Source: a virus
Direction: 5' to 3' (one strand)
Length of the DNA: 29,776 nt
Virus record (IMG/VR): IMGVR_UViG_3300028592_000060
Location: 1-29,776 of that record
Under the pieces are notes generated by a model that was not told the DNA's origin, ran no database searches, and saw nothing but the letters and a program-made list of their open reading frames with translations. The translations under genes were made by a program, and so were the position numbers. This document shows positions 6,752 to 28,681 of the stretch, piece by piece. How positions within the stretch are numbered: position 1 is the stretch's first letter; each line of letters begins with the position of its first letter.

Positions 6752-6867
6752 CGTGCCTGTTTCCCTTCGACGTTGGTATTACACAATCGAATAACTTTGC
6801 GCAAAATCATGCAATATAATTATACAGTAATATGGCGATGACGATACGTTGCAGGAACCAGACGGGG

Positions 6868-12830: not shown

Positions 12831-12836
12831 GTTCGT

Positions 12837-14501
12837 TTACCTCGGGGCGAAGCGGCTTTTGGCCGCCTGCGTGCGCACGATCTGCCGGATGTTCTGCTCC
12901 AGGGCGCTGATCGGCGCGCGGTACTCCGACTCGCCCGGCGCTCTCCCCGTCCCGCCCGTCGCCGCGGCGAGTTCGGCGGGCGTCACCCCCAGGCGGGCGA
13001 GGGCACCCCCGCCCAATGCCTGCCGCCGGAGCGACAGCGCCTCCGCCGCCTGCGCCGTGTTGCGCTCGATCGCGGCCAGCAGGTCCGCGTTCCGGTCCGC
13101 CGTGCGCTGCTGCTGCTGCGCGGCCGGGGACGTCCCCCCCTGCGCTTGCCCGCCGAAGGTCAGCCCCTCCGGCAGTCCGAGCGGGCGGGTCGCGTCCCGG
13201 ATGCGGCGGCTGCGCTCGTCGCGGCCGTCGAGAAGGTCGATCTGCGGCGCGGCGGGCAGCGCGCGGTAGTTGGGCGCGGTGACGGGGTCGAAGACGTTCT
13301 TGACCTCGGTCTGCAGCACCTCCAGGATGCTCTGAAGCCCCCCCCGCAGCGGCACCAGGATCATGGGCGCGAACAGGCCCACCAAATCCAGCAGCGGCGT
13401 CGTGACCGCCTGCACCACCGCCGTGATGCCGGAGATGAAGGATCGCGTGGACTGCTCCGCGTAGCGGAACGTCTCGGCGATGTTACTGCCGAGCACGTCG
13501 AACAGGCTGCGGGCGTAGGCCGCGGCGTCCTGGAAGGCTTTGGGCAGGTTCGCCGCGATGGTGAGCACGGTCGCCGCCACCTCCACGACCACGGCCTGGA
13601 AGCTGCGCACGTCCGCGCCGAACAGCGCGCCGAAGCCCGCCAGCGAGTCGCGCAGGACGCCGGAGCGGCCCACCGCGCTCAGCACCTCGCCCACCGCGCG
13701 CATCCGCGCCTCCACGGCCCCCAGGAACCCATCCACGGCCGGACCCGCGGCGTTCAGCCCCTCGATGAGCCCCTGACCGAGCGGGCGGAGCGCCTGCTGC
13801 AGCCGGTCCCCGAAGTTCTCGATGGCGTTGGCCGCGCCGCCGGAGACGGAGGGGAGCCGCTCGAGCTGCCCCACCAGCCCCTCGATCACCTGCTGCGCGG
13901 ACAGGCCGCGCGCCTGCAGCTCCTCCCCGGAAAGCGTCCCGTAGAGCTGCAGCATGGCGGTGCGCACCTGCGGCACGCGCTCCGCGATCACGTTCAGGTT
14001 CTCCGCCGTCACCCGCCCGGCGGAGATGATCTGCTGCACCTGCCGCAGCGCCTCCCCGAGATCCTGGCTGGTGCCGCCCGCGCTCGCGGTCGCGTTGCCG
14101 AACGCGGCCAGCGCCCGCTCCGCGAACTGCGCGGAGAAGCCGACTGTCTGCAGGGCCAGAGAGCCGCGCACCGCCTCCTCGAACGAGAGGCCCGGCAGGC
14201 GCGCGACCTGCTGCAGCCGCGAAAGCTGCCCCTGAAGGTCCGCCGCCCCGGTGGAGACCGTGGCGAGGCCGCGCGTCAGGGAGTCGAACTGCACCGCCGT
14301 CCCGAAGGCGAGCGCGGAGGTGAGGCCCACCGCGGCCGTCGCCGCCAGGCCCAGGTTCTGCGCGAACGAGGCGGCCGACAGCGCCGCCGCCGCCGCGCCC
14401 CGGGCCGCGCCCTGCAGCCCGCGCTCCACGCCGTCGAGGTCGCGCACCGCCCGGTCCGCGCCGTCCATCCGTATCCGCACGAGCAGTTGTGACAGTGCCA
14501 T
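12837..14501 (-). CDS. Tape measure protein, 554 aa
   Basis: Sets tail length and is packed inside the tail tube. Typical features are a Gly/Ala-rich N-terminus with hydrophobic helix (FAQNLGLAATAAVGLTSALAF), and the conserved tape-measure N-terminal domain at about 70-250 with RLPGLSFEEAVRGSLALQTV, AGRVTAENLNVIAERVPQVR and AIENFGDRLQQALRPLG. A hydrophobic membrane-active region follows at about 360-410 (FISGITAVVQAVTTPLLDLV, GLFAPMILVPLRGG), and the C-terminus is helical. With the usual 0.15 nm per residue the tail would be roughly 80 nm long, short for a siphovirus. The frameshifted chaperone ends 7 bases upstream of its ATG. Confidence 0.9.
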   Translation of the reverse strand: MALSQLLVRIRMDGADRAVRDLDGVERGLQGAARGAAAAALSAASFAQNLGLAATAAVGLTSALAFGTAVQFDSLTRGLATVSTGAADLQGQLSRLQQVARLPGLSFEEAVRGSLALQTVGFSAQFAERALAAFGNATASAGGTSQDLGEALRQVQQIISAGRVTAENLNVIAERVPQVRTAMLQLYGTLSGEELQARGLSAQQVIEGLVGQLERLPSVSGGAANAIENFGDRLQQALRPLGQGLIEGLNAAGPAVDGFLGAVEARMRAVGEVLSAVGRSGVLRDSLAGFGALFGADVRSFQAVVVEVAATVLTIAANLPKAFQDAAAYARSLFDVLGSNIAETFRYAEQSTRSFISGITAVVQAVTTPLLDLVGLFAPMILVPLRGGLQSILEVLQTEVKNVFDPVTAPNYRALPAAPQIDLLDGRDERSRRIRDATRPLGLPEGLTFGGQAQGGTSPAAQQQQRTADRNADLLAAIERNTAQAAEALSLRRQALGGGALARLGVTPAELAAATGGTGRAPGESEYRAPISALEQNIRQIVRTQAAKSRFAPR

Positions 14502-14508
14502 TGGTACG

Positions 14509-15068
14509 CTACACGATCTTCCCGCCGCCCGCGATCACGGCCATCTCCGCCTCCTGCTTGTCGATCCGATCCCCCGCCACCACCAGGAGCGCCGCGGCGT
14601 CCCGGTCGAGGCCCGGCACCTCGTGGGGGAGCCGGTGCAGGTGCTTGACGCAGTAGTACAGGACGGTCTGCCCTACTGCGTCGAGTCGTTTTTTGCTTCG
14701 TCCACCGCGGCCGCCAGGTCGAACACGTCGGCGAACGCTTCGTTAAACTTGTTCTTGACGTCCACGAAGACGGACGGCATCCCCATCGCCAGCTCCGCCA
14801 GTCCGAGCACCGGGTCGAGCCCGGCGTCGTCGGTGGCGTCGGCGAGGTAGCACCGGCCCATGCTGATGACGTCCTTGTAGAAGGCGTCGGGCAGGCCGGG
14901 GAATTCCACGCGCACGGCGAGCACGTCTTCGGCGGTGGTGTACAGGTCCGGAAACACCGGGCGGCGGAAGCGGAGGGTGTCCCCGTCCGCCTCCACCACG
15001 AGCGCCGTGCGCATCTTCTCACTCTGGCGCTTCTCGCGCGCCTTGCCGCTGATCCGCTTCAGGCCCAA
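14509..15068 (-). CDS. Tail assembly chaperone, -1 frameshift product (GT-like), 186 aa
   Basis: Predicted fusion of the first 127 residues of the G-like protein with a 59-residue extension in the -1 frame, which begins RLDAVGQTVLYYCVKHL and ends AVIAGGGKIV. The frame change is at AAAAAAC (14694->14688); the extension stops at TAG 14511-14509, seven bases before the tape measure start. In lambda, G and GT bind tail tube and tape measure and fix the assembly ratio. Here the extension frame has no start of its own and stays open exactly between the slip site and the tape measure gene, as in other siphoviruses. Confidence 0.8.
14647..14694 (-). promoter_or_regulatory. Programmed -1 ribosomal frameshift signal
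   Basis: On the minus strand the canonical heptamer A AAA AAC (14694->14688) lies in the zero frame as GCA AAA AAC. After a 5-base spacer comes a perfect 10-bp stem, GACGCAGTAG (14682->14673) pairing with CTACTGCGTC (14656->14647), with a 16-base loop. The zero-frame TAG is the last three bases of the first arm. Heptamer, spacer length and stem all match the established -1 frameshift design. Confidence 0.85.
14673..15068 (-). CDS. Tail assembly chaperone (G-like), 131 aa
   Basis: The zero-frame product. It lies between tail tube and tape measure, where all lambda-like siphoviruses carry the G/GT pair. TTG at 15068 is preferred because AAAGGAGG stands 8 bases upstream; an ATG 18 codons later is an alternative. 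The sequence fits a small alpha/beta chaperone: LVVEADGDTLRFRRPVFPDL, YTTAEDVLAVRVEFPGLPDA and a C-terminal helical part (NKFNEAFADVFDLAAAVDEA). It ends with KNDSTQ just after the slip site. It is expected to hold the tape measure protein soluble during tail assembly and not to be in the virion. Confidence 0.8.
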   Translation of the reverse strand: MGLKRISGKAREKRQSEKMRTALVVEADGDTLRFRRPVFPDLYTTAEDVLAVRVEFPGLPDAFYKDVISMGRCYLADATDDAGLDPVLGLAELAMGMPSVFVDVKNKFNEAFADVFDLAAAVDEAKNDSTQ

Positions 15069-15092: not shown

Positions 15093-15503
15093 TTAGCTGG
15101 TCGGGTCGATGATCCGCGCGGTGACGCGCTGGGTCTGCGCCCGCCCCTGCGTGATGACCACGCCCACGTCCGTGATGACGGTCTCCACGGTCTTGTCCGC
15201 CAGCACGCCGTCCTCCGAGTACAGGAACTTGACGAAGTGCTGGTGCAGGTCGTCCCAGGTGAAGCCCCCGGTCCCCACGTAGGCGGTGAACGTGATCTGT
15301 CCGGTGGAACCGGTGATGACGAGCGTCCCGTTGTCCTCGCAGATGGCGGCGACCTCGTCGGTCTTGGAGCCGAGCGTCTTGTTCCAGTCGGACACCAGGC
15401 ACTGCATGGGCACGGTCGCCCCGTAGGTCGGCCCGGCGGCGCTGTACGCCCCGCCGTCCTGGTACCCCACCTCGAACACGCTGGCCGCGTTCACTACAGG
15501 CAT
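15093..15503 (-). CDS. Probable major tail tube protein, 136 aa
   Basis: Position between tail terminator and chaperones, and a beta-rich sequence (NGTLVITGSTGQITFTAYVG, TVETVITDVGVVITQGRAQT, ARIIDPTS), fit the tail tube subunit that polymerises around the tape measure. At 136 aa it is near the short end of the family, with no extra Ig domain. ATG at 15503 has GAGGAG about 10 bases upstream and lies 6 bases after the terminator gene's stop. The N-terminus contains VFEVGYQDGGAYSAAGPTYG. A minor structural protein is the alternative, but no other tube candidate exists in the operon. Confidence 0.65.
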   Translation of the reverse strand: MPVVNAASVFEVGYQDGGAYSAAGPTYGATVPMQCLVSDWNKTLGSKTDEVAAICEDNGTLVITGSTGQITFTAYVGTGGFTWDDLHQHFVKFLYSEDGVLADKTVETVITDVGVVITQGRAQTQRVTARIIDPTS

Positions 15504-15509: not shown

Positions 15510-15989
15510 TTACTCCTCCTCGGGTGCAGCGGTGACGTAGAACCGGTAAACCCCGCCCGCCGCGTACAGCCGGGTACCGCCGTTTTCGGGAACCGGGGGG
15601 GTCCGCGCGGACCCCTCCCGCTCGGCGCAGAGACGCCACCCGGCGTGCTCCGCCCGCGCGCCGGAGAGCAGGTCATCGATCCGCTTCTCCCACACGTGCA
15701 GCGCCGCGTAGCCGGTGTTCCGGCCCCACGCGCGCACCGCGAACGAGAGGCCGGTCAGCACCGGCACCCCGCACAGCGCCATCTCCGCGCCCGCAGCGCC
15801 GCCCTCTTGCAGCGAGAAGACGATAAACGGCAGGGGCGCGTCCACGGGAGCACGCTCCGCGTAGACCCGCGCCGCGCCCGTCCCGTCCGCCAGGGAAAGC
15901 CCGTCCGCGGGCTCGCAGAGCACCGGGTCCTCCCGGAGCAGCGCGTACAGGTATTCGCTGATCGCCGCGGTTTCCGTCACGTCCGGCAT
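15510..15989 (-). CDS. Tail terminator / completion protein (DUF3168-like), 159 aa
   Basis: Follows the gp10-like neck gene and precedes the tube, the usual position of the tail terminator that caps the growing tail and meets the head. The helical start EYLYALLREDPVL and the strand RVYAERAPVDAPLPFIVFSL are typical of the DUF3168 / lambda gpU-type fold, as are the later VLTGLSFAVRAWG and ALHVWEKRIDDLLSG. ATG at 15989 directly adjoins the previous stop (TAA-ATG without gap). The C-terminus ends with YRFYVTAAPEEE. The assignment combines motif style and gene order. Confidence 0.75.
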   Translation of the reverse strand: MPDVTETAAISEYLYALLREDPVLCEPADGLSLADGTGAARVYAERAPVDAPLPFIVFSLQEGGAAGAEMALCGVPVLTGLSFAVRAWGRNTGYAALHVWEKRIDDLLSGARAEHAGWRLCAEREGSARTPPVPENGGTRLYAAGGVYRFYVTAAPEEE

Positions 15990-16349
15990 TTAGGGCACGC
16001 TCCTGTTGGCCTTGTCGAACAGCCCCTCCACGGCCCGCTCGAAGGTCGGCATGACCTCCTCCACCGCGTCATCCTGGAAGGGCCGCGGCTCGCGCCCGTT
16101 CGCCCCGTTGTGGACGTAAGGGCCGTACTCCGCGCCGACGTAGCTCTCCCCCTCGAACGGGGAGACGATGCGCTCGCCCACGCTGTTGAGCATGAACGCG
16201 GTATCGACGGCCTGGTACTTCTGCGCGATGTTGACCTTCGTGCGGGCGGAGACGTCGAAGGTCGCCTTGCGCACGATCTGGCTCCCCTCGCCGCGCAGGG
16301 CGTCCGTGAGCGCCGGGATGCCGCTCCGGACGGTCGCCTCGATCCTCAC
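15990..16349 (-). CDS. HK97 gp10-like neck / tail completion protein, 119 aa
   Basis: Small connector-region protein joining filled heads to tails. Hallmarks are the N-terminal VRIEATVRSGIPALTDALRG, a helix IVRKATFDVSARTKVNIAQK, then the strand pair around GESYVGAEYGPYVHNG and the tail PRPFQDDAVEEVMPTFERAV, which is characteristic of the HK97 gp10-like family. GTG at 16349 overlaps the upstream 501-aa gene by 4 bases (GTGA), with GGGGAAG upstream. It would normally follow head-closure directly; here nearly 7.6 kb of other genes lie between. Confidence 0.85.
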   Translation of the reverse strand: MRIEATVRSGIPALTDALRGEGSQIVRKATFDVSARTKVNIAQKYQAVDTAFMLNSVGERIVSPFEGESYVGAEYGPYVHNGANGREPRPFQDDAVEEVMPTFERAVEGLFDKANRSVP

Positions 16350-17851
16350 GGCTGCTTCCCCGCCTTCACGACCAGCGGCCCCCAGTGGCCGACGTGGTGG
16401 TACGGCGCGCAGAGCACGCGGTACGGCTCTATCCCGGCGTCGCGGAACCCGTCGATCATCAGCTTGGTGTGGTAGACCATGTCGGTGACGTACCACCGCT
16501 TTTCGCCCGGCGGCAGGGGCGCGTGCGCGTAGTCGAGGCGGTAGTCGATGACCTCGCCGCGCGGCGTCGTCTCGCTCAGGTGCGCCCACGTCTCGGTCAC
16601 GCGGTAGCGGAACGTGCTGCGGTTGTCGAGGTTGCCGTAGTACGGCCCCTCCTCCCGGCGCGGGTTGTTCCGTCCGTTCGGCTCCCCGTTCCAGGTGGTC
16701 CGCCAGTAGCGCCACCAGTCCGGGTTGTCGAAGGAGACCGGCCCCTCCGCGAAGACGTTGCGCCTCCCGTCCGGCAGGGCGTCCATCCGGTAGGCGTACC
16801 ACTTCGCCCGGTCGAAGTAGGCCCAGAACGCCGGACGGCCGCCGGGGCCGGAGGGGAAGAGTTCCTTGTCCTTCGTCTCGTTCGGGTACAGCAGCGGGTC
16901 CGCCGCGTCGAGCAGCGTCGCCTCGAACCAGATGCGCTCGGTGACGCAGGCGTCCACGGAGAACTCCAACTCGACGTAGCCGCCGGGGGCCAGCGTCACG
17001 GGCGGCGGGGCGATCACCTGCGCGCTGTAGTTGCTGTGCGCCTCCCCGTAGGGCGCGGTCGGCCCGTCGCTGGTGACGGTCATCATGTGCGCCTTGTGCG
17101 CGAACCGGGACGTGTAACGCTCATTCGTGGAGTAGTCGTAGAACTCCACGCCCCCGATCCGGAACGCCTTGCGCTCGGAGAAGGGGTGCCCGACGTTGAC
17201 GTTGGGGGCGACCCAGTCCGCCGGGAAGGGGAACTCCTCCGCGTGCCGGTGCTCCCTGCCCGCCCAGTCCTCGAAGAAGACCGTGTCGGGGTCCTTCAGG
17301 GCCGGGTGGGGCGCGGCGTGGACGGGCACGGGCGCGGAGCGGGCGAGCGGCGTGCCGAGCAGCGCGAAGAGCCGCTCCGGGGTGTCCACCTCGAAGGGCT
17401 CCACGCCGGGGCGCGTGCCGTTCAGGACGGAAAAGGCGTCGTGCTCCGGGTCGAAGACGTAGGGGCCGACCACCGGCCACGCCTCGACGACGAGGGAGGC
17501 GGGCGTCCCGTTCGCCTGCCCGACGTTGTAGCCCGCGGTGAACTTGATCCATGTCGGGTCGTCGGGGTCGCGCATCGAGTAGTCGGCCGCGCCCGGCACG
17601 TAGGGCCAGGCGAGGCGGACCGCGTTGTGCTCCGGCGTGAAGGTGACGCCCGCCAGGACGGGCACGGCGGACGGGTCCGGCGGCGGCGGGTCGTCGTCGG
17701 GCACTTCCTCGTCGGGCGGCGGCGGCTTCGCTTCCAGGGCGGCGACGCGCGCGGTCAGGCCCGCCACGTCGGCGGCGAGCGTCGCCCGCAGCGCGGCGGC
17801 CAGCCCCCGCGCGGCCTCTGCCAGAACCTCGTCGGCGGTCTTCTCCGGCAT
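16346..17851 (-). CDS. Adhesin-like structural protein with coiled coil and FN3-like domain, 501 aa
   Basis: No family recognised for the whole. Residues 1-45 form a likely coiled coil (TADEVLAEAARGLAAALRAT), typical of trimerising fibre stalks. Residues 46-68 are a Pro/Asp linker. About 70-150 looks like a fibronectin-III-type domain (FTPEHNAVRLAWPYVPGAAD). The C-terminal 330 residues are rich in Trp, Tyr and His and read like a large concanavalin/jelly-roll fold (FWAYFDRAKWYAYRMDALPD, APYHHVGHWGPLVV). ATG at 17851 has GGAGG 7 bases upstream and overlaps the amidase stop by one base. It is probably a virion surface or receptor-binding protein; enzymatic activity cannot be excluded. Confidence 0.6.
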   Translation of the reverse strand: MPEKTADEVLAEAARGLAAALRATLAADVAGLTARVAALEAKPPPPDEEVPDDDPPPPDPSAVPVLAGVTFTPEHNAVRLAWPYVPGAADYSMRDPDDPTWIKFTAGYNVGQANGTPASLVVEAWPVVGPYVFDPEHDAFSVLNGTRPGVEPFEVDTPERLFALLGTPLARSAPVPVHAAPHPALKDPDTVFFEDWAGREHRHAEEFPFPADWVAPNVNVGHPFSERKAFRIGGVEFYDYSTNERYTSRFAHKAHMMTVTSDGPTAPYGEAHSNYSAQVIAPPPVTLAPGGYVELEFSVDACVTERIWFEATLLDAADPLLYPNETKDKELFPSGPGGRPAFWAYFDRAKWYAYRMDALPDGRRNVFAEGPVSFDNPDWWRYWRTTWNGEPNGRNNPRREEGPYYGNLDNRSTFRYRVTETWAHLSETTPRGEVIDYRLDYAHAPLPPGEKRWYVTDMVYHTKLMIDGFRDAGIEPYRVLCAPYHHVGHWGPLVVKAGKQP

Positions 17852-18411
17852 CAGGAATCCTCCATCTTCGCCGCCACCGCCGCCCGGACCGGTCCCAGCC
17901 GCAGAGACGCGCAGAACGGCTTCCCCCGGTCGTGGTCGGAGTGCTGCGTGATGACCGGGATCACCTTGCCCGTCGCCGGGTGCGTGAACGTGCCGAGCGG
18001 GTCGAGGCCGTACTGGCGGCAGTTGGCCGCCAGCCAGTGAACGAGCGCCCCGTACTGCCGCAGGGTCAGGTAGCGGCGCACCCGCACGTCCGCCGGGGCT
18101 TCGGCGACGGCCTTCCCTTCGGCGTCGGTCACGGGCCAGCCGGGGTTCCCGACGCAGCAGACGCCCAGGCTCACCGCGTTCATGCCGCCCGCCTTGCAGT
18201 GCGCGCCCTGCTGTCCCTCCGGCCTGCCGGGCTCGATCTTGCCGTCGAGGGCGACTGCGTAGGCGGCCCGGTACGTCCGGACGCCGTTGAGGATCACGCC
18301 GTGGTAGCCGATGTCCGCCCACCCGTTGCCCTCCACGTGCCAGGAGCGGATCGCCTTCGCGTCCCCCCAGGTGGAGGCCGAAACGTGTACGACGATGCCC
18401 CGGACTTTCAA
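17851..18411 (-). CDS. N-acetylmuramoyl-L-alanine amidase endolysin (T7 lysozyme type), 186 aa
   Basis: Cleaves the amide bond between muramic acid and the peptide stem to release progeny. It is a single Amidase_2/PGRP catalytic domain. Zinc ligands by comparison with T7 lysozyme are H9 (GIVVHVSA), H157 (TQHSDHD) and C167 (GKPFC); K164 and Y36 (GWADIGYHGVI) match the other active-site residues. The core strands YAVALDGKIEPGRP and MNAVSLGVCCVG are present. TTG at 18411 is the start: GGAGGT lies 4 bases upstream and the start overlaps the previous stop by 4 bases. There is no signal peptide and no separate wall-binding domain, so export depends on the holin. Confidence 0.88.
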   Translation of the reverse strand: MKVRGIVVHVSASTWGDAKAIRSWHVEGNGWADIGYHGVILNGVRTYRAAYAVALDGKIEPGRPEGQQGAHCKAGGMNAVSLGVCCVGNPGWPVTDAEGKAVAEAPADVRVRRYLTLRQYGALVHWLAANCRQYGLDPLGTFTHPATGKVIPVITQHSDHDRGKPFCASLRLGPVRAAVAAKMEDS

Positions 18412-18599
18412 TCGACCTCCTCCACCGCCTTCGCGGCGTTGCTTTTCTTCCTGCCGGTCTCGGTGCCCCAGATCCGCTGCATGACTTCGTCCTGGACCGT
18501 GTTCAGCAGATGGACGCGCTGCGGCGTGTCCTTCGGGAGTCGCTTCGCCCGCGCGATCTTCTCGATCAGCTTGACCGCCCACCCCAGGTCACCGAACAT
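18408..18599 (-). CDS. Small lysis-cassette protein, 63 aa
   Basis: Charged, helical protein (LGWAVKLIEKIARAKRLPKD, then LLNTVQDEVMQRIWG) without a membrane segment. ATG at 18599 has GGGAGG 6 bases upstream. It overlaps the holin gene by 11 bases and the amidase start by 4, so it is coupled to both. No family recognised. Its position between holin and endolysin, where PBSX-type cassettes have nothing, suggests an accessory or antiholin-like regulator, but the lack of a hydrophobic segment argues against a membrane role. Confidence 0.55.
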   Translation of the reverse strand: MFGDLGWAVKLIEKIARAKRLPKDTPQRVHLLNTVQDEVMQRIWGTETGRKKSNAAKAVEEVD

Positions 18600-18882
18600 C
18601 GCCGCCTCCCTTCGCTTTCCGCGCCTGCTTCGCCTGTTGGTGCAGTCCGGTCGCCACGATGGCCGCCAGCAGTCCCCGCAGGAGCGCCTCCAGGCCGTTC
18701 ACGGGCGGGTCGCCCGGCGTGAGCGTCACGCGCCCGTAGAACGCCATCAGGGACGTCGCCGCCGCAAGCAGGAGCGAGCAGGCGAGTACCCAGTAGTCTT
18801 TCAGCTTCAGGACCCGCTTCACGACCGACGTCGCCGCCAGGATCAGCGCGCCGAACGCCGCAAGTGCCAGGTAGTCGATCAT
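18589..18882 (-). CDS. Probable holin, 97 aa
   Basis: Small membrane protein. Two strong hydrophobic segments at about residues 2-20 (YLALAAFGALILAATSVV) and 31-49 (WVLACSLLLAAATSLMAFYG), a weaker one at 65-80 (LEALLRGLLAAIVATG), then a basic tail (QQAKQARKAKGG), all as in class I/III holins. It is preceded by an XhlA-like gene and followed closely by the amidase, the usual lysis cassette. ATG at 18882 adjoins the previous stop, with AAGGGG 9 bases upstream. It should form inner-membrane lesions at the programmed time and let the amidase out. Confidence 0.75.
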   Translation of the reverse strand: MIDYLALAAFGALILAATSVVKRVLKLKDYWVLACSLLLAAATSLMAFYGRVTLTPGDPPVNGLEALLRGLLAAIVATGLHQQAKQARKAKGGGDVR

Positions 18883-19584
18883 TTAGCCGAGCCCCTTCCC
18901 GCGCAGCACCAGGCCGATCAGCGTGAGCATGGTCCCGACGATGGTCAGCCCGATCACCGACGCCCACCGGATGCCGCCCACGATCTGGTCCTGCATCTTC
19001 TGCACGCGCTCCTCCGCCTCGCGCCGGTCGCGCTCCCGCGCGTCCTCCGCCTTCTGCGCCCGCGCCTCTGCCTCGCGCAGGTCGCGCTCCTGGGCGGCCT
19101 GCTCCTGCTTGTGCAGCGAAAGCGCCTGCTCCGCCGCGTACAGGCGGCGCTGCACCTCCGCCATCGCGGTGGAGGAGCCGTCGTTAATCGCGCGCTGGTG
19201 CATCATGTCCGCCCGAATCCCGATGACCGCCTCGTTGATCGTCCCGAGCAGGATGGAGTTCTGGCGCTCCCGGTCGGCGGCTTCCTTCTGCCGGGTCTCG
19301 AAGTTCATCAGCGCCCACTCAACCTGCCGCACCGCCGTCTTTAGCTGCTCCACGGCCTCTTCTCCCCCGTCCGCGACGCCGTTGAGGTCAGGGGAACCCT
19401 GCCCGCGCGACCGGGGAGCGGCCCTTCTCCGGTCGGCACCGTCGTCGTATGGTTTCGCTGTAGCTGCCATAACGGCCGGCCCTTCCGTCGTCTGTTTCGG
19501 CGGCTTCATCGACTGGGAATCTGCGCCGCCCACGGACACGCCCGGCGTGCCCGGCTTGACCATCAACCCCGCTGCCCCGCTCAC
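18883..19584 (-). CDS. XhlA-like coiled-coil protein with C-terminal membrane helix, 233 aa
   Basis: GTG at 19584 is chosen: GGAG lies 8 bases upstream and the start overlaps the previous stop by 4 bases (GTGA); ATG at 19563 is an alternative. Residues 1-70 are low-complexity; 75-200 form a long charged coiled coil (QERDLREAEARAQKAEDARE); 204-227 is one membrane helix (IRWASVIGLTIVGTMLTLIG). This layout, and the order coiled-coil protein, holin, amidase, match PBSX XhlA-XhlB-XlyA, though XhlA is only about 90 aa. It is probably a lysis partner anchored in the inner membrane. No lipobox is present, so a spanin role is less likely. Confidence 0.65.
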   Translation of the reverse strand: MSGAAGLMVKPGTPGVSVGGADSQSMKPPKQTTEGPAVMAATAKPYDDGADRRRAAPRSRGQGSPDLNGVADGGEEAVEQLKTAVRQVEWALMNFETRQKEAADRERQNSILLGTINEAVIGIRADMMHQRAINDGSSTAMAEVQRRLYAAEQALSLHKQEQAAQERDLREAEARAQKAEDARERDRREAEERVQKMQDQIVGGIRWASVIGLTIVGTMLTLIGLVLRGKGLG

Positions 19585-21101
19585 CGCGAAAGCTCCGCTT
19601 CCGGCACCCTCCACAGGAGCGCCGCGCTGCCGTTGAAGTCCATCAGGGAGCAGACGTACTCCGCGCCACGCCCGCCGCCCCGCCGCCACACGTGGAAGCC
19701 GCCGCGCGGCTCGTCAAGGGTGGAGTTCGGAGCCAGGTCCGTCGCCATCCGGCCCACCGGCTCCCCGGTGTCGCGCCGGAAGACGTCCACGCCGCCGCCC
19801 TGCCCGTGCGCGAGGAAGACGAAGTCGCCCTCCACGGCGAGCGCGCCGACCAGCTCGCCCGGCGCGAAGTTCGGCAGTTCGTGCGTCGCCGTTCCCCGGC
19901 GCACCCCCTTGACCCACGGCAGCGGCGTGCGCCAGATCGCGTAATCCGGCCCCCGCTTGTGCGCGGAAAGTTCCCACCCGTCGCCCTGGCGGCGCACGGC
20001 GTAGAACGTGCCGTCGTCAAAATGGTGGCGGGTCATCTCTACGCAGTCGCAGTCGAGCAGGGAAGCGGGGTAGTCGAAGTGATCCCACTCCCCGCCTTCG
20101 AGCGGCCACAGCTCGTAACAGCCCTTCGCGGCGTCGGAGCCGTAGCCCCTCCACGTCACCGAGCCGTACGGGCCGACCTGCGCGTCGAACTCGTTCCACA
20201 GCGGCGCGGGCAGGTCGGTCAGTTCGTACTCGCCCGCCTCCATGTGGCCGTCGCCGTCCGCGTCCCGCCACAGCAAGCCCTGCCCCCAGGCCACTTCCGG
20301 CGCTTCCGGCGGCCAGCCCGGCGTCGCGTTGTCGCTCCGCGGCGGGCGCACCATCACCGAGGCGGCGGGAACCCACAGGTTCGTCAGGGCGTCCCAGCGG
20401 TGGAAGTCCACCTCGTTCGCCCCGCTCGCCAGGTACGTCTCGCCCCCCGCCCGGAACGCGCGGAACGTGGTGCGGTGCGATCCCTGCCCGATGGCGTGGA
20501 CGTGCAGGCGCGGGTCGGTCGGGTACAGCGCCGGGGCGATCGTGTCCCCGGCGAAGTGCCACTCCCGCCCGTCGCCGCGCTCCGCCCAGCGCATTTTGTA
20601 GCGCGTGTTCGCGTCGTACAGCAGCGTCGGGTCCTTCGGGTCCGGCACCACGCAGTCGGTCTGAACGGTGCTGTGCAGCGTCGCCTCCGGGGTCGTGAGC
20701 GTGAAGCGCCCCCACGGCGTCTGCTCCCACGCCACGCCGCGCACGCCGCGCAGGACGGCCCCCTGGGGGACCTCCTCGGTCTGGTGCCACTCCCGGTCCG
20801 CGTCCGTGTCGCCCGGGGCGAGCCCCACCGCGAACGGGGGGGCCTCGAACGGGAAATCAAAAGCGTGCCCGGCCTGCTCGCCCCCGGGCGTGACCCACAC
20901 GGTGTGCCCGCCGCCCTCGTTCCACTCCGATACCAGGCGGATCTTCCCGTCCCGCTCCACGCCCACGCGCGCGACCGTCGCCGGGACCGCCGCGCGCACG
21001 GGCGAGCCGTCCGGAAAGGTCAGCCCCCGCGGCGACAGGCCGCCGATGCTGTTGCCGACGCGCGTGTGCGTCGCGTTCAGCGGGCGGAGGGCGGGAGCCA
21101 T
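19581..21101 (-). CDS. Propeller-like protein with EF-hand-type loop, 506 aa
   Basis: Not a recognised phage family. The sequence has repeating beta blades with Trp/Gly/Asp turns (GRFTLTTPEATLHSTVQTDC, HAIGQGSHRTTFRAFRAGG, LVGALAVEGDFVFLAHGQGG), as in bacterial surface propellers. Residues 280-291 (DADGDGHMEAGE) are a perfect EF-hand calcium loop with D280, D282, D284 and E291. The N-terminal part (about 1-130) includes GFSPRG-like turns and a WVTPGGEQAGHAFDFPFEAP stretch. ATG at 21101 overlaps the previous stop by one base. It looks like a bacterial extracellular protein captured as a virion component, likely for glycan or receptor contact; calcium binding is inferred. Confidence 0.55.
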   Translation of the reverse strand: MAPALRPLNATHTRVGNSIGGLSPRGLTFPDGSPVRAAVPATVARVGVERDGKIRLVSEWNEGGGHTVWVTPGGEQAGHAFDFPFEAPPFAVGLAPGDTDADREWHQTEEVPQGAVLRGVRGVAWEQTPWGRFTLTTPEATLHSTVQTDCVVPDPKDPTLLYDANTRYKMRWAERGDGREWHFAGDTIAPALYPTDPRLHVHAIGQGSHRTTFRAFRAGGETYLASGANEVDFHRWDALTNLWVPAASVMVRPPRSDNATPGWPPEAPEVAWGQGLLWRDADGDGHMEAGEYELTDLPAPLWNEFDAQVGPYGSVTWRGYGSDAAKGCYELWPLEGGEWDHFDYPASLLDCDCVEMTRHHFDDGTFYAVRRQGDGWELSAHKRGPDYAIWRTPLPWVKGVRRGTATHELPNFAPGELVGALAVEGDFVFLAHGQGGGVDVFRRDTGEPVGRMATDLAPNSTLDEPRGGFHVWRRGGGRGAEYVCSLMDFNGSAALLWRVPEAELSR

Positions 21102-21796
21102 CAGTCCAGGCTCTCCGCGATGCGCACGGCGATCCTGTGCCCGAGCGGGTAGGTCAGGCCCGCCACGCTCACGGTCATCTCGTAGTCCCCGGCCTCGGGA
21201 ACGGCGTCCTCCGCGTCGAAGGCGTCCGAGGCGACGAAGCCGAGCGCCCCGAACAGCACGCTGCCCCCGATCGTCGTGGCCGTCTCCGCGCCCTTCTTCC
21301 GGAGCACGAAGGAAACGGTTGCGTCGCTCGGGACAACCACGGCGCGGCCGTCGTTGCCCTTCACCTGGTAGAGAATCCCGCCCGCGACGTCGTCGGCGGT
21401 GAGGCCCAGCGCCTCGCGCGGGTAGCCGCTCCCGGCGTTCACCAGCGTCTGCACGGTCGCGCTCCCCATCGCCGCCAGGAGGAGGTTCGTCGGGGTGTCC
21501 AGGCGCGTCTGCCAGAGGGGCGTCGGCGGCGATGTCACGCCGTCCACGGTGGCGGTCGGGACCATCGAGACGCAGTCGCCCACGGCGTAGTCCGCCGGGA
21601 TCGTGAAGGAGGCGTTGAAGAGCGCGGACTCCCCGGCCGCCGCCGCGACCGTGACCGCGACTTCCGCGTCCGCCACGCCGTTGCGGTACAGGGCGGCGGT
21701 CGGCAGCGCGTCCGGCGCGGCCCCCGCCCCCTCCTGGTCCTGCGTGGGGAACTGCACCACCACCGCGTCGCCCGGCTTGAAGATGCCCGTTAACAA
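21101..21796 (-). CDS. BppU-like baseplate/fibre adaptor, 231 aa
   Basis: TTG at 21796 is chosen because GGAGGTGA stands 7 bases upstream; no ATG lies near. It overlaps the glycosidase gene by 7 bases. The N-terminal 90 residues resemble the BppU/Ig-like domain that attaches receptor-binding proteins (FKPGDAVVVQFPTQDQEG, PTAALYRNGVADAEVAVTVA, FNASFTIPADYAVGDCVSM). The middle (LLAAMGSATVQTLVNAGSGY) is a common linker motif in tail fibre proteins, and the C-terminal 90 residues form a second Ig-like domain (VSFVLRKKGAETATTIGGSV, GDYEMTVSVAGLTYPLGHRI). It probably links the neighbouring enzyme or propeller to the virion. Confidence 0.6.
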   Translation of the reverse strand: MLTGIFKPGDAVVVQFPTQDQEGAGAAPDALPTAALYRNGVADAEVAVTVAAAAGESALFNASFTIPADYAVGDCVSMVPTATVDGVTSPPTPLWQTRLDTPTNLLLAAMGSATVQTLVNAGSGYPREALGLTADDVAGGILYQVKGNDGRAVVVPSDATVSFVLRKKGAETATTIGGSVLFGALGFVASDAFDAEDAVPEAGDYEMTVSVAGLTYPLGHRIAVRIAESLD

Positions 21797-23898
21797 CTCA
21801 TCACCTCCACGTACTGCTCGAAGGGGGTTCCGCCCGGCTGCTCCCCCGGGTCCGCCGCCGCCAGCGACACCAGCAGCAGCGACCCGGGCGCGAGCGCCGC
21901 CGAAAAGCCGTCCGAATCCACGCTCACCAGCTCCGGCTCGGAGACGAGCGCCGCGTCCCCGCTCTCGAAAATGCTGGCGTGGTTCCTGTCCACGCGGTAG
22001 GCGGACTCCACGGCCATCCCGTCCGGGAGGTTGTCCACCGCGACGCGCACGCGGCTGCCCGCGCCCGGCGACGCCTTCAGGACGCTCACCTGGTAGAGCA
22101 GGCAGTCCAGGCGCGTCCCGGCGGCGTCGCGCGCGAGGATGCCCGCCGCCCGCCCCGAGGCCGTCACGGGCAGCACGCGCGCGGCCATCTGCGCGAACCA
22201 GTTCATGACGTGCGCGTGGGGCTTGTCCTCGCCGTCCACCGTGACGAGTCCCGTCGCGGTCAGGTCGCCGCCCACGAGCGCGGGATTCTCGCCCGCCGCC
22301 CAGTAGGTCCAGAACGGCACCGCGTCCGCCCCGAGCGAGGCGAACAAATCCAGCGGGGCGGCGACGGCGACCGCGCCCGCCCAGGCCCACCGGCCCGGGT
22401 TGACCGGCGTGGTCACGGGGGTCAGCCGCTCCAGGCTGATGTTGATGTTGCCCTCGGTCTGCGCGATCTGCTTGCCCGGGTAGTTGGTCCGCAGGTAGGC
22501 CACGTCCCGGGCGAAGTCCGCCGGTCCGCGGTGGTAGTTGTGAACCGCGATGATCTCGTAGGGCTCGGTCAGTGCGTCCAGGTACTCGTACAGCGCGGCC
22601 CCGTGGGAGTGCCCCCACTCCGCGACGCTCTGCGGCAGGTCCGGGTAGGCGGCGCGGACCGCGGCCAGGCGCGCGTTCGTGATCGCGGCGGCCTGCGCGG
22701 GCGTCAGGGTGCCGAAAATGTCCGGCTCGTTCATGTCGCCCACGGACAGTATGGTGATACCGGCGTTGACCCACTGCGCGAGCGCCGTCACGACCGCCGC
22801 CGCGACCGTCGCCGGGTCCGTGTCGGCGTCGGGGTGCTGCCCGTCCGCCGGGTCGTAGCAGAAGTTGAGGTGGACGCCCTCGCCGCCCGTGACGTTGGCG
22901 ATGTCGGCGAGCACCTCCGCGCCGGGCTTGGTGAGCAGGTCGCTGTACCGGTGGACGCGCACGGTCGCGCGGATCGGCGCGTCCGCCGGGACGTTCGCCT
23001 CCGGGTCGCCGAACACGGCCCCCTGCAAATTCGGGTTGCGCGCGACCCACGCGGCGTCGGCGTAGTCCGCCGAGAGCGTGGTCAAATCCCCCTCGGTCGG
23101 CTCTTCCTGCCCGTCCGCGCGGCCCGTGGTGTAGAGCGCGAGGCCCGCCCGGGAGACGAGGTGGGCGAGCGGGAAGGTAGCTCCGCCGCCCGCGTCCGCG
23201 CCGCCCGTCACCAGCCCCTCCCCCTGGAGGTAGCTGCCCCCGTCGAAGGCGAGGCCAGGCGCGAAGGCCGCGCCGGGGACGGCGTCCGCGACCAGAGCGC
23301 CGCCGTGCGGCTTCACCTGTACGGTCACGTCGCCGGTCGCCGGGGTGAGCCGGACCAGTGTGTGCGTGTAGGCGTCCGTCGTGACGGCCGCCCCGTCAAA
23401 GTTCGTCGCCCCGACGCGGAAGGACCAGACGAGCGCGCCGCCGACCTTGCGCACCTGGAAGCGCAGCGCGGAGGGGAACCCGTACTGCTCGGGGAGGCGG
23501 ACCGCCCACAGCGCGTGCGCCTGCCCCTCGGAGAGCGCCGCCGTCGCGGACGCCGGGACGTGGTACCGCTCCGCGACGGCGAACGCCCCGGCGGCGTTGA
23601 CGAGGCCGTTCGTCGGCACGGTCATCTCCGCGAGCGGCGCGCTGTACGCCCCGTCCGAGCGGGGGCGCAGGCTCGTCTCGCCGGGCACCGGGGACGGCTC
23701 CCCGGCCTCGTAGAAGGGGAACAGGGAGAGGCCGTCGCCGCCGCCGAAGTTGGCGTCGGGGACGTTCGCCCGCTGCATCGGCGCGCCCTGCACGCCCGCC
23801 GCGCTGTAGGCGGGCGTCAGCCCGTCCGCCTGCTCGGTCGAGTACGCGAGGTCGGGCGCGGAAAGGTTCACCGCGGCGTCTATCTGGTAGAGGGCCAC
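21790..23898 (-). CDS. Virion-associated glycoside hydrolase (clan GH-A-like TIM barrel), 702 aa
   Basis: Probable polysaccharide-cleaving protein. About residues 85-215 resemble a LamG/concanavalin domain (ALRFQVRKVGGALVWSFRVG). A TIM barrel follows at about 285-575. Clan GH-A hallmarks are in order: acid/base in N390-E391-P392 (ILSVGDMNEPDIFG), H454-N-Y-H457 after strand 6 (IIAVHNYHRGP), nucleophile E482 (IAQTEGNI), and a strand-8 Trp (AVPFWTYWA). The two glutamates are 91 apart, normal for the clan. A C-terminal beta sandwich (580-690) is also usual. GTG at 23898 follows the previous stop by 3 bases. It lies among structural genes, so it is probably in the virion and degrades capsule or exopolysaccharide. 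Substrate unknown. Confidence 0.7.
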   Translation of the reverse strand: MALYQIDAAVNLSAPDLAYSTEQADGLTPAYSAAGVQGAPMQRANVPDANFGGGDGLSLFPFYEAGEPSPVPGETSLRPRSDGAYSAPLAEMTVPTNGLVNAAGAFAVAERYHVPASATAALSEGQAHALWAVRLPEQYGFPSALRFQVRKVGGALVWSFRVGATNFDGAAVTTDAYTHTLVRLTPATGDVTVQVKPHGGALVADAVPGAAFAPGLAFDGGSYLQGEGLVTGGADAGGGATFPLAHLVSRAGLALYTTGRADGQEEPTEGDLTTLSADYADAAWVARNPNLQGAVFGDPEANVPADAPIRATVRVHRYSDLLTKPGAEVLADIANVTGGEGVHLNFCYDPADGQHPDADTDPATVAAAVVTALAQWVNAGITILSVGDMNEPDIFGTLTPAQAAAITNARLAAVRAAYPDLPQSVAEWGHSHGAALYEYLDALTEPYEIIAVHNYHRGPADFARDVAYLRTNYPGKQIAQTEGNINISLERLTPVTTPVNPGRWAWAGAVAVAAPLDLFASLGADAVPFWTYWAAGENPALVGGDLTATGLVTVDGEDKPHAHVMNWFAQMAARVLPVTASGRAAGILARDAAGTRLDCLLYQVSVLKASPGAGSRVRVAVDNLPDGMAVESAYRVDRNHASIFESGDAALVSEPELVSVDSDGFSAALAPGSLLLVSLAAADPGEQPGGTPFEQYVEVMSC

Positions 23899-23901
23899 GC
23901 C

Positions 23902-25353
23902 TTACGCGCCTCCCTCGTAGAAGCGGAACTCGGCGACGCGCAGGCCGTCGTCGCTCGCGCTGTCGCGGTAGCCGTAGACGCCCGCCCGGCCCGCCGCCGT
24001 GATCGGCGTGCCCGAAACGTCCGTGTAGGTCAGCACCTCCGCGCCGTCGAGGTAGACCGTGATCGTGTTGCCCGCGATCTCGGCGCGCAGGGTGCCGGTG
24101 TCGGCGACGCCCGACGCGGAGGAGGCGACCGGAGCGCCCCCGACGACCGTTCCCGCGGCGAACTTCAGGATGTCTACGTTGGTGCCGTACCCTTTGAGTT
24201 TGCGCACGGCGTAGGCGGTGATCGCGGCGCTGCTCGCCCCGTCGGCGCGCAGCGCGATGCCGTCCGCGCTGCTGGTGCCCCCGCCGCTGGTGAGATCGAC
24301 CTCGGCGGCGTAGTCGGCACCGCTGGGCGCGGGGTCGATGAGGCTGAACGTGTGCGCGCCGCCGCTGCCGTTCCACAGGTAGCCGCCGCCGCCCGCGACG
24401 AGGCGGTTGTTGCTGGTGCCGTTGTCGGGCAGGACCCAGTCGGTCCCGAGGTCGGGGATGTGCGCGGAAAGGTCCGTCTCCAGCGCCTCGGTGAACGTGT
24501 CGCGGAAGACCAGCGTCTCCCCGCCGCCGCCGCCGGTCTGCTCGGAGTTGTTCGTCACAGCCGCGTCCGTGAAGGCGGCCAGTTCGTTCGGCATTTCCGC
24601 GCTGTCCGTGACGTTGCCCGATCCCTGGGAGTAGGAGAGCGTGACGGTGTCCGTGTCCAGGACGGTCTCCGAAAGCGTCAGGGTGATGGCGAGCGGGGCG
24701 GTGCGCGCCGCGCTCTCGATCGTGGCGGGCGTGCCGTTGACCTCCACGGTGAAGCCCGTTATCCCGGAGGCCGGGAGGAGCGGGGGGCTGTCCGCCTCGG
24801 TGAAGAGCGCGACCACGGACGTACCCGCCGCCGGGACGGAGGCGGAGGCGAAGATCGGCGCGGTGGCGTCCGGATCGGGGTCGCCCCCGCCGCCGCCCGC
24901 CCCTATCCCGAATATTCTGCTCCCGATGATGGACGGCACCGCGACCTCCTCGCCTTCCCGCGTGACGCTCGCCACGAGGTTCACCGCGTCCGCGCGCCCG
25001 GCGTCCGTGCCCCGCGCGCGGAACAGCGTGCCCCTCTCGCCGCCCTCCGCGAACACCAGCAGCTCGTCGCCCGCCCGCACGTCCGCGCCGGGGGCGAACA
25101 GGATCTCCGCGTCGGCCTCGGTCTGTTCGCCCTCTCCAACCGGCGTGAAGCGGCTGCCGACCGGGCGGCGCACGCGGCAGGGGTGCTCCCCCACGGGAAC
25201 GGGCTCGCCGCGGCGCTCCCCGCCCGCCGCGTCGGCCTCGGACGGGGGGCGCGAGACGCGGCACCGCTGCGTCAGCAGGGCGCGCAGGGCGTGCTCCCGG
25301 CCCGCGCGGGTCGCCCGCTGCCGGGCGGCCGCGGCGACGCCCTCAGACGGCAT
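23902..25353 (-). CDS. Head-closure protein fused to SwmB and LamG-like domains, 483 aa
   Basis: Residues about 20-140 match head-tail joining/stopper proteins: LLTQRCRVSRP, PVPVGEHPCRVRRPVGS, LFAPGADVRAGDELLVFAEG and VNLVASVTREGEEV. After a glycine hinge (about 151-158) a SwmB-type Ig repeat follows (163-270, from DATAPIFASASVPAAG to FTDAAVTNNS), then a second Gly hinge and a LamG/concanavalin-like domain to the end (from VFRDTFTEALETDLSAHIPD to VAEFRFYEGG). Head-closure proteins are normally about 100-140 aa, so this one is more than three times the usual size. ATG at 25353 overlaps the connector gene by 11 bases. The extra domains would project from the neck and may bind sugars. Confidence 0.7.
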   Translation of the reverse strand: MPSEGVAAAARQRATRAGREHALRALLTQRCRVSRPPSEADAAGGERRGEPVPVGEHPCRVRRPVGSRFTPVGEGEQTEADAEILFAPGADVRAGDELLVFAEGGERGTLFRARGTDAGRADAVNLVASVTREGEEVAVPSIIGSRIFGIGAGGGGGDPDPDATAPIFASASVPAAGTSVVALFTEADSPPLLPASGITGFTVEVNGTPATIESAARTAPLAITLTLSETVLDTDTVTLSYSQGSGNVTDSAEMPNELAAFTDAAVTNNSEQTGGGGGETLVFRDTFTEALETDLSAHIPDLGTDWVLPDNGTSNNRLVAGGGGYLWNGSGGAHTFSLIDPAPSGADYAAEVDLTSGGGTSSADGIALRADGASSAAITAYAVRKLKGYGTNVDILKFAAGTVVGGAPVASSASGVADTGTLRAEIAGNTITVYLDGAEVLTYTDVSGTPITAAGRAGVYGYRDSASDDGLRVAEFRFYEGGA

Positions 25354-25810
25354 AGAACGGCCTCTGCGCGTCGCGCATCCTGACCCAATGCTCGTGCTGC
25401 TGCTCCAAATGCACGCTCTGCCCGGCGTCGGACGTGGCGATCAGCTCCGCCGTGCGCTGCGCCCGCAGGTCGTACAGGCGGCGCTTCGCGGCGGTGAAAT
25501 CGTAGGGGTCGTTGTGCGCGGGGCCGACGTCCTCCCAGCGCACCGTCCCGTCCGTGACGAGGTAGCCCCGGCAGGTGGCGGCGAAGCCGGAGGGCTCGGC
25601 GGCGGCGGTGGTGCCCGCCGCGACGGCGCGCAGGAGGCGGCCGGAAGCGGAGCGGACGAAGGCCCCGAACGCGTACTCCGTCTCCCCCGTCCGCTCGGAC
25701 CAGCGGGCGGACTCGGCGAGGATGTCGCCGGCCTCCTGGTCCGAGACGGGCGGGAACGCGTCGAGGTCCACCGTCCGCTTCAGCTTCGCGAGCGCCTCCG
25801 CGGCCGTCAT
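25343..25810 (-). CDS. Probable head-tail connector protein, 155 aa
   Basis: Lies between the capsid group and head-closure, the position of the connector (gp6/gp15-like) adaptor. The N-terminal helix MTAAEALAKLKRTVDLDAFP is usual in this group; a middle SGRLLRAVAAGTTAAAEPSG segment and a helical end (AKRRLYDLRAQRTAELIATS) follow. The C-terminal SVHLEQQHEHWVRMRDAQR is less usual. ATG at 25810 overlaps the previous stop by 4 bases (ATGA). Assignment depends largely on gene order. Confidence 0.55.
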   Translation of the reverse strand: MTAAEALAKLKRTVDLDAFPPVSDQEAGDILAESARWSERTGETEYAFGAFVRSASGRLLRAVAAGTTAAAEPSGFAATCRGYLVTDGTVRWEDVGPAHNDPYDFTAAKRRLYDLRAQRTAELIATSDAGQSVHLEQQHEHWVRMRDAQRPFYAV

Positions 25811-26121
25811 TTGGTCTTCGCCGGTCCCTTCAGTGCCTTGTCGGCGGGCGCCGACGCCACCGCCTTAGCCGCAGCCGGTTCGGCCTTCGCTTCGTCTTCG
25901 TCGTTCTCCGCGCGCTTGGGCTTGCCCAGCGTCGCCTTGCCGCCTTCGACGGTCAGGCCCGCCTCCTTCGCCTTCTGCGCGTCGATGACGCCGCCCGCGC
26001 CCACGAGCGTGGTCCGGCCCCGCTCGTCGCCGAAGGGAACGGCCTTGCCGTTTTCGTCCGCCCAGATTTCCTCGTCGCTGGTGATCACGGGTTTGCCCCC
26101 TTTCGCGAATTCCAGGGCCAT
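25807..26121 (-). CDS. Small capsid/connector-region protein, 104 aa
   Basis: ATG at 26121 overlaps the previous TAA by one base (TAATG). The N-terminal half has short beta elements (LEFAKGGKPVITSDEEIWAD, then GRTTLVGAGGVIDAQKAKEA). The C-terminal third is Lys/Glu/Ala-rich and disordered, with KPKRAENDEDEAKAEPAAAK. This resembles small head-region proteins of HK97-type phages whose tails are disordered. No specific family recognised. Confidence 0.5.
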   Translation of the reverse strand: MALEFAKGGKPVITSDEEIWADENGKAVPFGDERGRTTLVGAGGVIDAQKAKEAGLTVEGGKATLGKPKRAENDEDEAKAEPAAAKAVASAPADKALKGPAKTK

Positions 26122-26676: not shown

Positions 26677-27936
26677 TCAGATGCCGGTGACCTTCGCGAA
26701 CGCCGCGGGCCGGTAGATTTCCAGGCTCAGGCGCTCCTCCGCGCGGATCGTCTGCTGGTTCTTGATGAACTGGTCGTTGATCCACCCGGCGTCGATGGTG
26801 ATGCCCATGCGGCGGCTGATGTGCGAGTAGAGCTGGAAGTCGCCGGTCAGCGCCGTGTTCTCCGTCATGGCGCTGGTGATGACCACCGGCTTGCCCCAGA
26901 TGCGCTCCGGCCCGGCCTCGCTCGGGTTGCCCCAGATGTAAATGCCGTCCGTGGTGCGCAGCAGGCGCACCTCCTGCCAGTCGTTCGGGTGGAACACCGC
27001 GCCCGACGGCTCCGCCATGCCGGTCCAGCGCACGAGGGTGAACGCCTTGTAAACGGCGTCCGGGGCCGGGTCCGCGCCCTTCGGCTGGGTCTGCGTGCCG
27101 GAGACCACGAGGAACCCTTCGAGGTCCGGGGCGACGCCGGTGCCGGTGAGCAGCTGCACCTCCTCCGCCAGCATGAGCATGAGCCGCAGCCGGTTGTCGA
27201 TGACCGCGCGGATCTGCGGCACGTCCATGAGCTGCTCGTCGGTCACCGGGAGGACCGTCGCGATCTTGCGGACGGGCGACTCCACCTCCGTGAAGCCCAG
27301 CGCGGACTCGGGCTTGGTGCCGCCCTCCTCCACCGTGTCGGCGTTGTTGGTGAAGGTCGTCTCGCGCATGTAGCGGATGAGCGAGGCGGTGGTGGACGTC
27401 TGCGGGATGAGGTCGGCGACCACCGGGCGGCGCTGCGCGCTCGGGATGACGATGTCGCTGCGGTCGTTCGCCGGGGCGAAGCCCGCGCTCGTGGTCATGA
27501 GCGTCTTGACGTCGATCTCGCCCAGTTCGACGGACACCTTGTTGCCGCCGCCGGGCCGGAACGCCTTGAACGCCGCGGACTCCGCGAACAGCTCGCCCAG
27601 GCTCTTGCTCTGAACCCGCCCGCCCGCGATCTCCGCGTCCTTGCCGGGGAACGGCACGCGGCCCGCCGGGGCGTTCATCCCGTCGAGCAGGAGGCGGTTC
27701 TTCACGTCGATGATGACGACCTCGCGCTTCTGCTCGAACTCTTTGGTCAGGTCGTCCAGCTTGTTGTTGCGGTTGTGGAACTCGTCAAGGTCGGCCCCGG
27801 TCAGCCCGGTGATGCCGCCCTTCTCGTCCACCCACGCCTTGAACCCCTCGCGCTCCACGCGCACCTTCTTCGCCTCGTCGCCCATCTTCCTGGCGACTTC
27901 GGCGCCCACCCGCTCCATGAGCTGCTCTTCGGTCAT
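26677..27936 (-). CDS. HK97-fold major capsid protein, 419 aa
   Basis: Main coat subunit. ATG at 27936 follows AGGAAG and lies 13 bases after the protease stop; a longer reading in this frame is a basic shadow. Residues 1 to about 115 form a charged, helical delta domain ([40 protein letters not shown]), presumably removed by the adjacent protease. From about 160 the HK97 core follows: N-arm and P-domain with [55 protein letters not shown], an A-domain with [15 protein letters not shown], and the end [20 protein letters not shown]. The length is normal for the family. Whether covalent cross-links form cannot be told. Confidence 0.93.
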
Positions 27937-27949: not shown

Positions 27950-28681
27950 TCAGAGGGAGACGCCCGCCAGCCGGGCCTCCCGCGCAAAGTAGCGGGACAG
28001 TTCGGCCTGCAGCCGCTGGTCCCGCGCGTCGTCGCCCGACGCGCCCTCCGGCGCGTCCGTTTGCGCGGCGTCAGGCTCCCCCTGACCGTCCGCTTCCTCC
28101 GCCGCGCGGAAGCCTTTGGCAACGATCGCCTCGGCCTTCGAGCGGCTGAACCCCACTTCCCGCAGGAACTCCTCGAACTCGCGCGCCGTCGCCGGGACCA
28201 CCCGCGGCGCGTTCTTCGCGCTGGTAACCTGGGCGAGCGGGTTGCTCGGCACCGTCACGATGGACACCTCGTAGAGCGTGCCCTTCGTGATGAGGCGGAC
28301 GTCCTTCTCCTCGTCCCACTCCCACCGGTCCACGGAAAAACCAACGGACAGCTTCACGGACTTGCCGCGCGCCTGCCGCTCGTTCACCCGCTGGCGGTAG
28401 ACCTGCGCCTCCGGGTCGGAGTGCCACTGCCAGCCGAAGAACAGCCCCTCCGGCTCCTCGCGCGCGTCCGTGATCGTGCCGACGCCCGTCTTCCAGTCGT
28501 GCCCCACGGCGAGGAACCCGTCCCGCACGAACCCTTCGAGCGAGTCGCCGAAGACGCCGGGCATGAGCATCTCGTTGTCCCGGTCGAGCACGTTGTACGC
28601 GTTGGCGAGCCCCTCGCCCCCGCCCGGCCCGTCGCCGGGGAAGTCCTTCACCCGCGCGTCAAAGCTTTTGGTCACGATCAT
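27950..28681 (-). CDS. HK97-type prohead protease, 243 aa
   Basis: Serine protease (family S78/U35) that matures the prohead by cutting the scaffold-like delta domain of the coat protein. The catalytic His is H61 in LAVGHDW and the Ser is S112 in VKLSVGF, in the usual order and spacing; [19 protein letters not shown] is typical of the family. The core continues with [20 protein letters not shown]. The C-terminal 60 residues are acidic and variable. ATG at 28681 overlaps the upstream head gene by 4 bases (ATGA). Length is within the family's range. Confidence 0.9.

Follow-up and report, generated by a model that had tools for sequence, protein, structure and literature searches.

A block of adhesin-like, enzyme-like and lysis genes between the stopper and gp10-like genes of an uncultured virus, with a possible role at the neck

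Neck adhesins in described phages

The neck passage structures (NPS) of lactococcal P335 and 936 phages are the closest known system to the gene block described here. An NPS places a BppU-like ring at the neck and has CBM or hydrolase-like ends (PMC6669499, PMC4493119); ring, fibre and ends of the CBM, beta-helix or esterase-type CBM kind are swapped from phage to phage (PMC6669499, PMC10684548). The NPS gene of TP901-1 comes after the baseplate genes and outside the connector module, and its product is at the neck (PMC6669499, PMC4493119); bppU, bppL, a membrane protein gene and NPS stand together in that phage (PMC4493119). Hence gene position fixes no virion position, in either direction. 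In mycobacteriophage Douge, host glycans are bound by Ig-like domains of the capsid and the tail tube (PMC13033339).

What the block has in common with NPS is the idea of an accessory, swappable adhesin. An NPS, with its BppU-like N-domain, fibre and CBM or hydrolase-like end, is attached to the connector (PMC6669499, PMC10684548, PMC4493119), but it is one protein, non-essential in TP901-1, and no fusion to a connector ring is described for it. NPS-type neck adhesins are therefore known, and what differs here is the number of genes, their position between stopper and gp10-like genes, a segment fused to the stopper and the inclusion of lysis genes. Where NPS has the BppU-like N-domain, our locus has a 231-aa protein just weakly similar to BppU-like relatives, and where NPS has the CBM or hydrolase-like end, it has lectin-like and GH-A-like parts recognised by motif only. 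The Ig-like and BppU domains of Douge are likewise surface domains, with glycan binding shown in Douge, but they are reported on capsid, tail tube and baseplate and not on the neck (PMC13033339).

A different comparison concerns the lysis genes. Late operons of Gram-positive phages, for example PBSX, end at their 3' side in a cassette of fibre or BppU, XhlA, holin and amidase genes. The lysis part of our block, with its probable XhlA-like and holin genes, has the same gene content and order as such cassettes in PBSX and TP901-1, but it lies within the connector module and not at the 3' end of the operon.

The block and its cargo

The window takes up an entire IMG/VR virus record; it is 29,776 bases long, with a GC content of about 71%, and the virus is probably a temperate siphovirus. 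Regulator-like genes lie at the left and a minus-strand structural operon at the right (Table 1). The operon runs through genes for a MuF-like protein, prohead protease, capsid, two small head proteins, adaptor candidate and stopper into the block, and continues with gp10-like protein, terminator, tube, chaperone, tape measure and the 757-aa and 993-aa tail proteins. The slippery heptamer of the chaperone gene stands directly before the stop and the -1 frame is open to about 14530, which we read as a classic G/GT programmed frameshift. The 993-aa protein (7007-9988, minus strand) has one Asp-box close to its C-terminus, sialidase/BNR-like, and is conserved in the window, L114, L116, L117 and L118. 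A 283-aa protein beyond the tail genes (5900-6751, minus strand), with a signal-peptide-like start, a Gly-rich end and no family match, is possibly a secreted moron.

Table 1. Features of the structural operon in the window, in order of transcription
Feature	Position	Strand	Basis
MuF-like minor head protein (context)	28678..29721	-	Pfam Phage_Mu_F 3e-15
Prohead protease (context)	27950..28681	-	Peptidase_S78 1.7e-13
HK97-fold major capsid protein (context)	26677..27936	-	Phage_capsid 2.3e-44
Ig-like head decoration candidate, 167 aa	26121..26624	-	PHROG tail families 1.9e-11; 42% identical in L002
Small protein, 104 aa, conserved 3' of capsid gene	25807..26121	-	family in 58 capsid-family loci
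Head-tail adaptor candidate	25343..25810	-	30% identical to L002 protein at equivalent place, also to L116; precedes stopper
Stopper (residues 1-131), SWM repeat (162-244), possible lectin-like C-terminal region	23902..25353	-	PHROG 615 1e-3; SWM_repeat 1.9e-8; AF2
N-terminal lectin-like region and putative clan GH-A-like glycosidase, 702 aa	21790..23898	-	motifs DMNEPD, AVHNYH, QTEGN by eye
Possible pair of BppU/Ig-like domains, 231 aa	21101..21796	-	similarity to L114 and L002 proteins
Propeller-like by eye, 506 aa	19581..21101	-	sub-threshold FG-GAP match, E 0.37
XhlA-like coiled-coil protein, one C-terminal TM (128-146)	18883..19353, start maybe 19584	-	PHROG 1193 hemolysin 1e-4
Probable holin, 2 TM	18589..18882	-	PHROG 1129 holin 7e-6; Phage_holin_5_2 6e-4, below cut-off
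63-aa protein of lysis group	18408..18599	-	coupled ORF
N-acetylmuramoyl-L-alanine amidase (endolysin), TTG start	17851..18411	-	Amidase_2 4e-12, above cut-off; PHROG 822 2e-16
Adhesin-like protein, 501 aa	16346..17851	-	no family or phage match
gp10-like neck/tail completion protein	15990..16349	-	PHROG 5 1.1e-8
Tail terminator candidate	15510..15989	-	Tail_completion_gp17 0.007; 34% identical in L114
Tail tube candidate	15093..15503	-	syntenic homologues in L113, L114
Tail assembly chaperone	14673..15068	-	L113 homologue 4e-18; AAAAAAC before stop
Tape measure protein	12837..14501	-	TMP_3 2e-12
757-aa tail protein, lineage marker	10557..12830	-	33-38% identical, nearly full length, in L113 and L114

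The first-pass annotation had put the head-closure and gp10-like genes about 7.5 kb apart. The distance is indeed 7,552 bp, and the gap holds eight genes, all on the minus strand, for proteins of 702, 231, 506, about 156-233, 97, 63, 186 and 501 aa. The stopper gene follows the adaptor candidate directly with an 11-bp overlap (-11), and the further junctions measure +3 (stopper/702-aa), -7 (702/231), -1 (231/506), -4 or +227 (506-aa/XhlA-like, set by an XhlA start at 19584 or 19353), 0 (XhlA/holin), -11 (holin/63-aa), -4 (63-aa/amidase), -1 (amidase/501-aa) and -4 bp (501-aa/gp10-like). Coupling by overlaps of 1 to 11 bases, as annotated, describes most of these junctions, but not stopper/702-aa or XhlA/holin. 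Codon usage in the block is that of the structural core (|z| < 2.5 for each block gene), hence there is no sign of chimera or recent import. The block, co-directional as had been claimed, belongs to the late structural operon.

The annotated head-closure gene encodes more than a head-closure protein, namely a 483-aa fusion with about 350 residues beyond the stopper part. Residues 1-131 are modelled as a stopper ring protein, a small beta-barrel (AF2 pLDDT mostly 76-95); the remainder is mostly of low confidence. PHROG 615/501 matches are weak. In comparisons by Foldseek and by VIA-align, the latter with a match list that covers the N-domain of the fusion only, residues ~26-134 gave the gene transfer agent (RcGTA) stopper at Z 11.9, phiXacJX1 at 11.2, Douge gp10 at 10.5 and SPP1 gp16 at 8.6. 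CR and PxGxDV motifs are common to the window stopper and the stoppers of ten relatives in an alignment. Fold and gene position are thus those of the SPP1, RcGTA and Douge stoppers, but most solved stoppers have about 100-130 aa. The C-terminal region of the fusion, read by eye, is possibly a lectin-like jellyroll (pLDDT mostly below 50).

The glycosidase, BppU-like and propeller labels of the first reading have motifs or weak similarity in their favour, but a profile match for none of them. The 702-, 231-, 506- and 501-aa proteins gave no above-threshold match in Pfam, PHROGs or NCBIfam, and PDB sequence searches with block proteins returned nothing useful. In the 702-aa protein, NE and TE motifs seen by eye would supply the candidate acid/base and nucleophile Glu of a clan GH-A TIM barrel; it matched nothing in Pfam (tried at E up to 10), PHROG, PDB or NCBIfam, and its putative glycosidase domain was modelled by AF2 at pLDDT 38. 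The C-half of the 231-aa protein is similar to a 150-aa protein of L114 (7e-6) and to the fibre C-terminus of L002 (2e-4); a PDB sequence search gave no match, and when its profile was compared with those of the Ig domains fused to adaptors (see below) the result was negative. IMG/VR peptide scans gave no close homologues of the 702- and 501-aa proteins, and INPHARED phages no close homologues of these or of the 506-aa protein. For the GH part of the 702-aa protein, plasmids gave no close homologues, and 396 genomes of L023's phylum just fragments at E 0.003-0.006. A lectin-like domain shared by the window, L028 and L073 was considered and rejected, the similarity being too weak (E ~0.003).

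The annotated XhlA-holin-amidase cassette is solid in its amidase, an identity certain by profile, while holin and XhlA-like protein are probable, with PHROG matches and Pfam below cut-off.

Relatives with and without a block

In a capsid-based survey we compared gene orders in the best 80 loci by capsid. Stopper and gp10 were both recognised in 16 loci, the window included, and 11 of these 16 have a gap of at most 80 bp, in agreement with the annotated siphovirus baseline of head closure followed directly by the gp10-like gene. The other gaps measure 201, 286, 948, 3,620 (L002) and 7,552 bp (window). The 948-bp gap holds an HNH-like gene on the opposite strand; in L056 the stopper and gp10 genes are separated by an HNH-like endonuclease gene of opposite direction (12665-13369, minus strand). 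L071 was dropped as a further insert, its 98-aa gene being unlike a stopper. Most relatives matched by capsid alone are without the block.

On the contrary, all relatives found via the 757-aa tail protein (L114, L116, L117/L118, L002/L113) have 3.3-6.2 kb in the stopper-gp10 gap, which puts a block at the same place in five distinct viruses, window included. Their cargo differs (fibres, BppU/Ig-like proteins, an SGNH-motif protein, in several also holin-like proteins). In L114 the order is stopper, 556-aa SGNH-motif protein, 360-aa fibre, 150-aa BppU-like protein and gp10. In L116 it is stopper, holin (PHROG 2359, 4e-12), an 88-aa protein, two beta-rich proteins, a 680-aa fibre, a BppU-like protein and gp10 (6371-6859). 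L117 and L118 have stopper, a TM plus coiled-coil protein, a 2-TM protein, an 89-aa protein, two beta-rich proteins, a long fibre, a 232-aa BppU-like protein and gp10. L113, a contig whose metagenome also yielded L003, is nearly identical to L002 where the two overlap; it extends the L002 order through gp10, terminator, tube, chaperone and tape measure to a 770-aa homologue of the 757-aa protein. In L002, L116 and L117/L118 membrane genes come first in the block, directly after the stopper, and block proteins of L002, L116 and L117 are mutually homologous.

Given this recurrence at one place with different cargo, the block is unlikely to be an accident. Gene-order comparison was the check proposed with the first annotation, and no relative found with such a block proved to be non-structural. 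The suggestion that lysis genes moved along with the block fits as well, because holin-like genes are also present in the L002, L116 and L117/L118 blocks.

GC content is 33 to 58% in the L114 and L116-L118 loci, against about 71% in the window. The L114 capsid is just 35% identical to that of the window, and for L116-L118 no capsid was matched, perhaps because the records are incomplete; hence the block appears to be tied to the lineage of tail and connector genes, and less to that of the capsid. Synechococcus phage Sc-Yong805-2, the one isolate whose tail protein is related (28%), has compactly arranged genes at the corresponding place and is probably without the block; a profile search confirmed neither its stopper nor its gp10.

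Among the capsid relatives, 12 of 57 distinct adaptors have an N-terminal extension above 90 aa, and at least two of the extended adaptors align with almost the whole of head-tail adaptor PHROG 442. The N-terminal domain is Ig/BppU-like in L023, L085, L087, L095 and L102-L105, and decoration-like instead in at least three (L038, L041 and L042); decoration-like domains are also found 3' of the capsid gene. Before the adaptor, L028 has an SGNH-motif protein and a BppU-like protein. Its 245-aa protein is 47% identical over 93 aa (1e-17) to the 232-aa block protein of L117, so that one module is present at two junctions of the connector genes. In L058 (7233-9022) a LamG-like protein and then a GH44 enzyme with a signal-like N-terminus (Pfam match above cut-off) lie between capsid and adaptor genes. 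Related repeat proteins of L071 (8287-9873) and L073 (12186-14012), 38% identical over 200 aa, lie on opposite sides of the adaptor gene.

What the block may do

In our opinion there is an even chance that the block is an accessory module for surface recognition and degradation, NPS-like at the neck, with lysis genes added. At the neck, up to six SWM/lectin-like arms would project from the stopper hexamer. The separate LamG-GH-like, BppU-like and 501-aa proteins would be fixed on or close to the stopper arm, as in lactococcal NPS, and would bind and trim glycans of the host surface prior to adsorption or in its course. The lysis genes would be co-transcribed passengers, acting late, whose products need not be in the virion. 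The stopper fold of the fusion N-terminus with its SWM repeat, the same-position blocks of relatives, the comparable cargo ahead of the adaptor in L028 and L058 and the lactococcal precedent speak for this module, and the stopper-SWM fusion of the window and the Ig/BppU-like adaptor fusions of capsid relatives are direct hints of display at the neck. The tail tip already has a conserved protein of its own (993 aa), to which the block fibres would be an addition. The neck-attached apparatus first annotated has partial support; neck attachment is plausible, directly suggested for the stopper fusion alone, and we infer the location of the other products.

A lesser but real possibility is that a 3'-end tail-fibre or baseplate and lysis cassette came to lie among the connector genes of an ancestral phage, with adhesins that continue to attach to the tail tip and just the stopper fusion sitting at the neck. 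The order BppU-like, XhlA-like, holin, amidase is indeed that of the Gram-positive cassette, and the rest of the record yielded no recognisable lysis genes; the grouping of bppU, bppL, a membrane protein gene and NPS in TP901-1 (PMC4493119) points the same way. Yet such a move leaves the Ig/BppU-like adaptor fusions and the stopper fusion unexplained, the tail tip genes (757 and 993 aa) occupy a separate position and are shared by the block relatives, and in L002, L116 and L117/L118 it is the membrane genes that follow the stopper first.

We consider it improbable that these proteins are general head and neck decorations that sit on capsid, adaptor and stopper and bind glycans weakly, with neither a defined neck apparatus nor an enzyme role. 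The decoration-like domains 3' of the capsid gene and on the adaptors of L038, L041 and L042 would suit such a role, as would the glycan-binding Ig-like domains on capsid and tail tube of Douge (PMC13033339), but the cargo includes long repeat fibres and enzyme-like proteins. Very improbable is an assembly artefact, or a set of morons without virion role: the contig is metagenomic, but the junctions are coupled, codon usage is uniform and the same arrangement is found on several independent contigs (L002, L114, L116, L117, L118), and on these grounds we rejected a chimera. That the members are known only as sequences counts in favour of that reading and against the neck module alike. Against the neck module we also count the position of the TP901-1 NPS gene outside the connector module, the negative profile comparison of the 231-aa protein, the 702-aa protein with its low pLDDT and absent profile match, and the low pLDDT of the lectin-like part.

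Returning to the neck module, we propose a wider idea, held tentatively and with some doubt: connector rings serve as display platforms, the stopper in the window and the adaptor in capsid relatives carrying glycan-binding arms, and the stopper-gp10 slot is a hot spot that exchanges fibres, glycan-active enzymes and lysis genes as a module in a widespread uncultured siphovirus lineage. If this is true, the use of the neck to recognise the host and degrade its surface would be a modular strategy of general occurrence, not confined to lactococcal phages, and proteins of the connector rings would themselves evolve into carriers of adhesins. Annotators would then be cautioned that fibre or lysis genes in between those for head and tail are no sure sign of an assembly error, and the stopper-gp10 slot would be a defined place to seek new polysaccharide-active phage enzymes.
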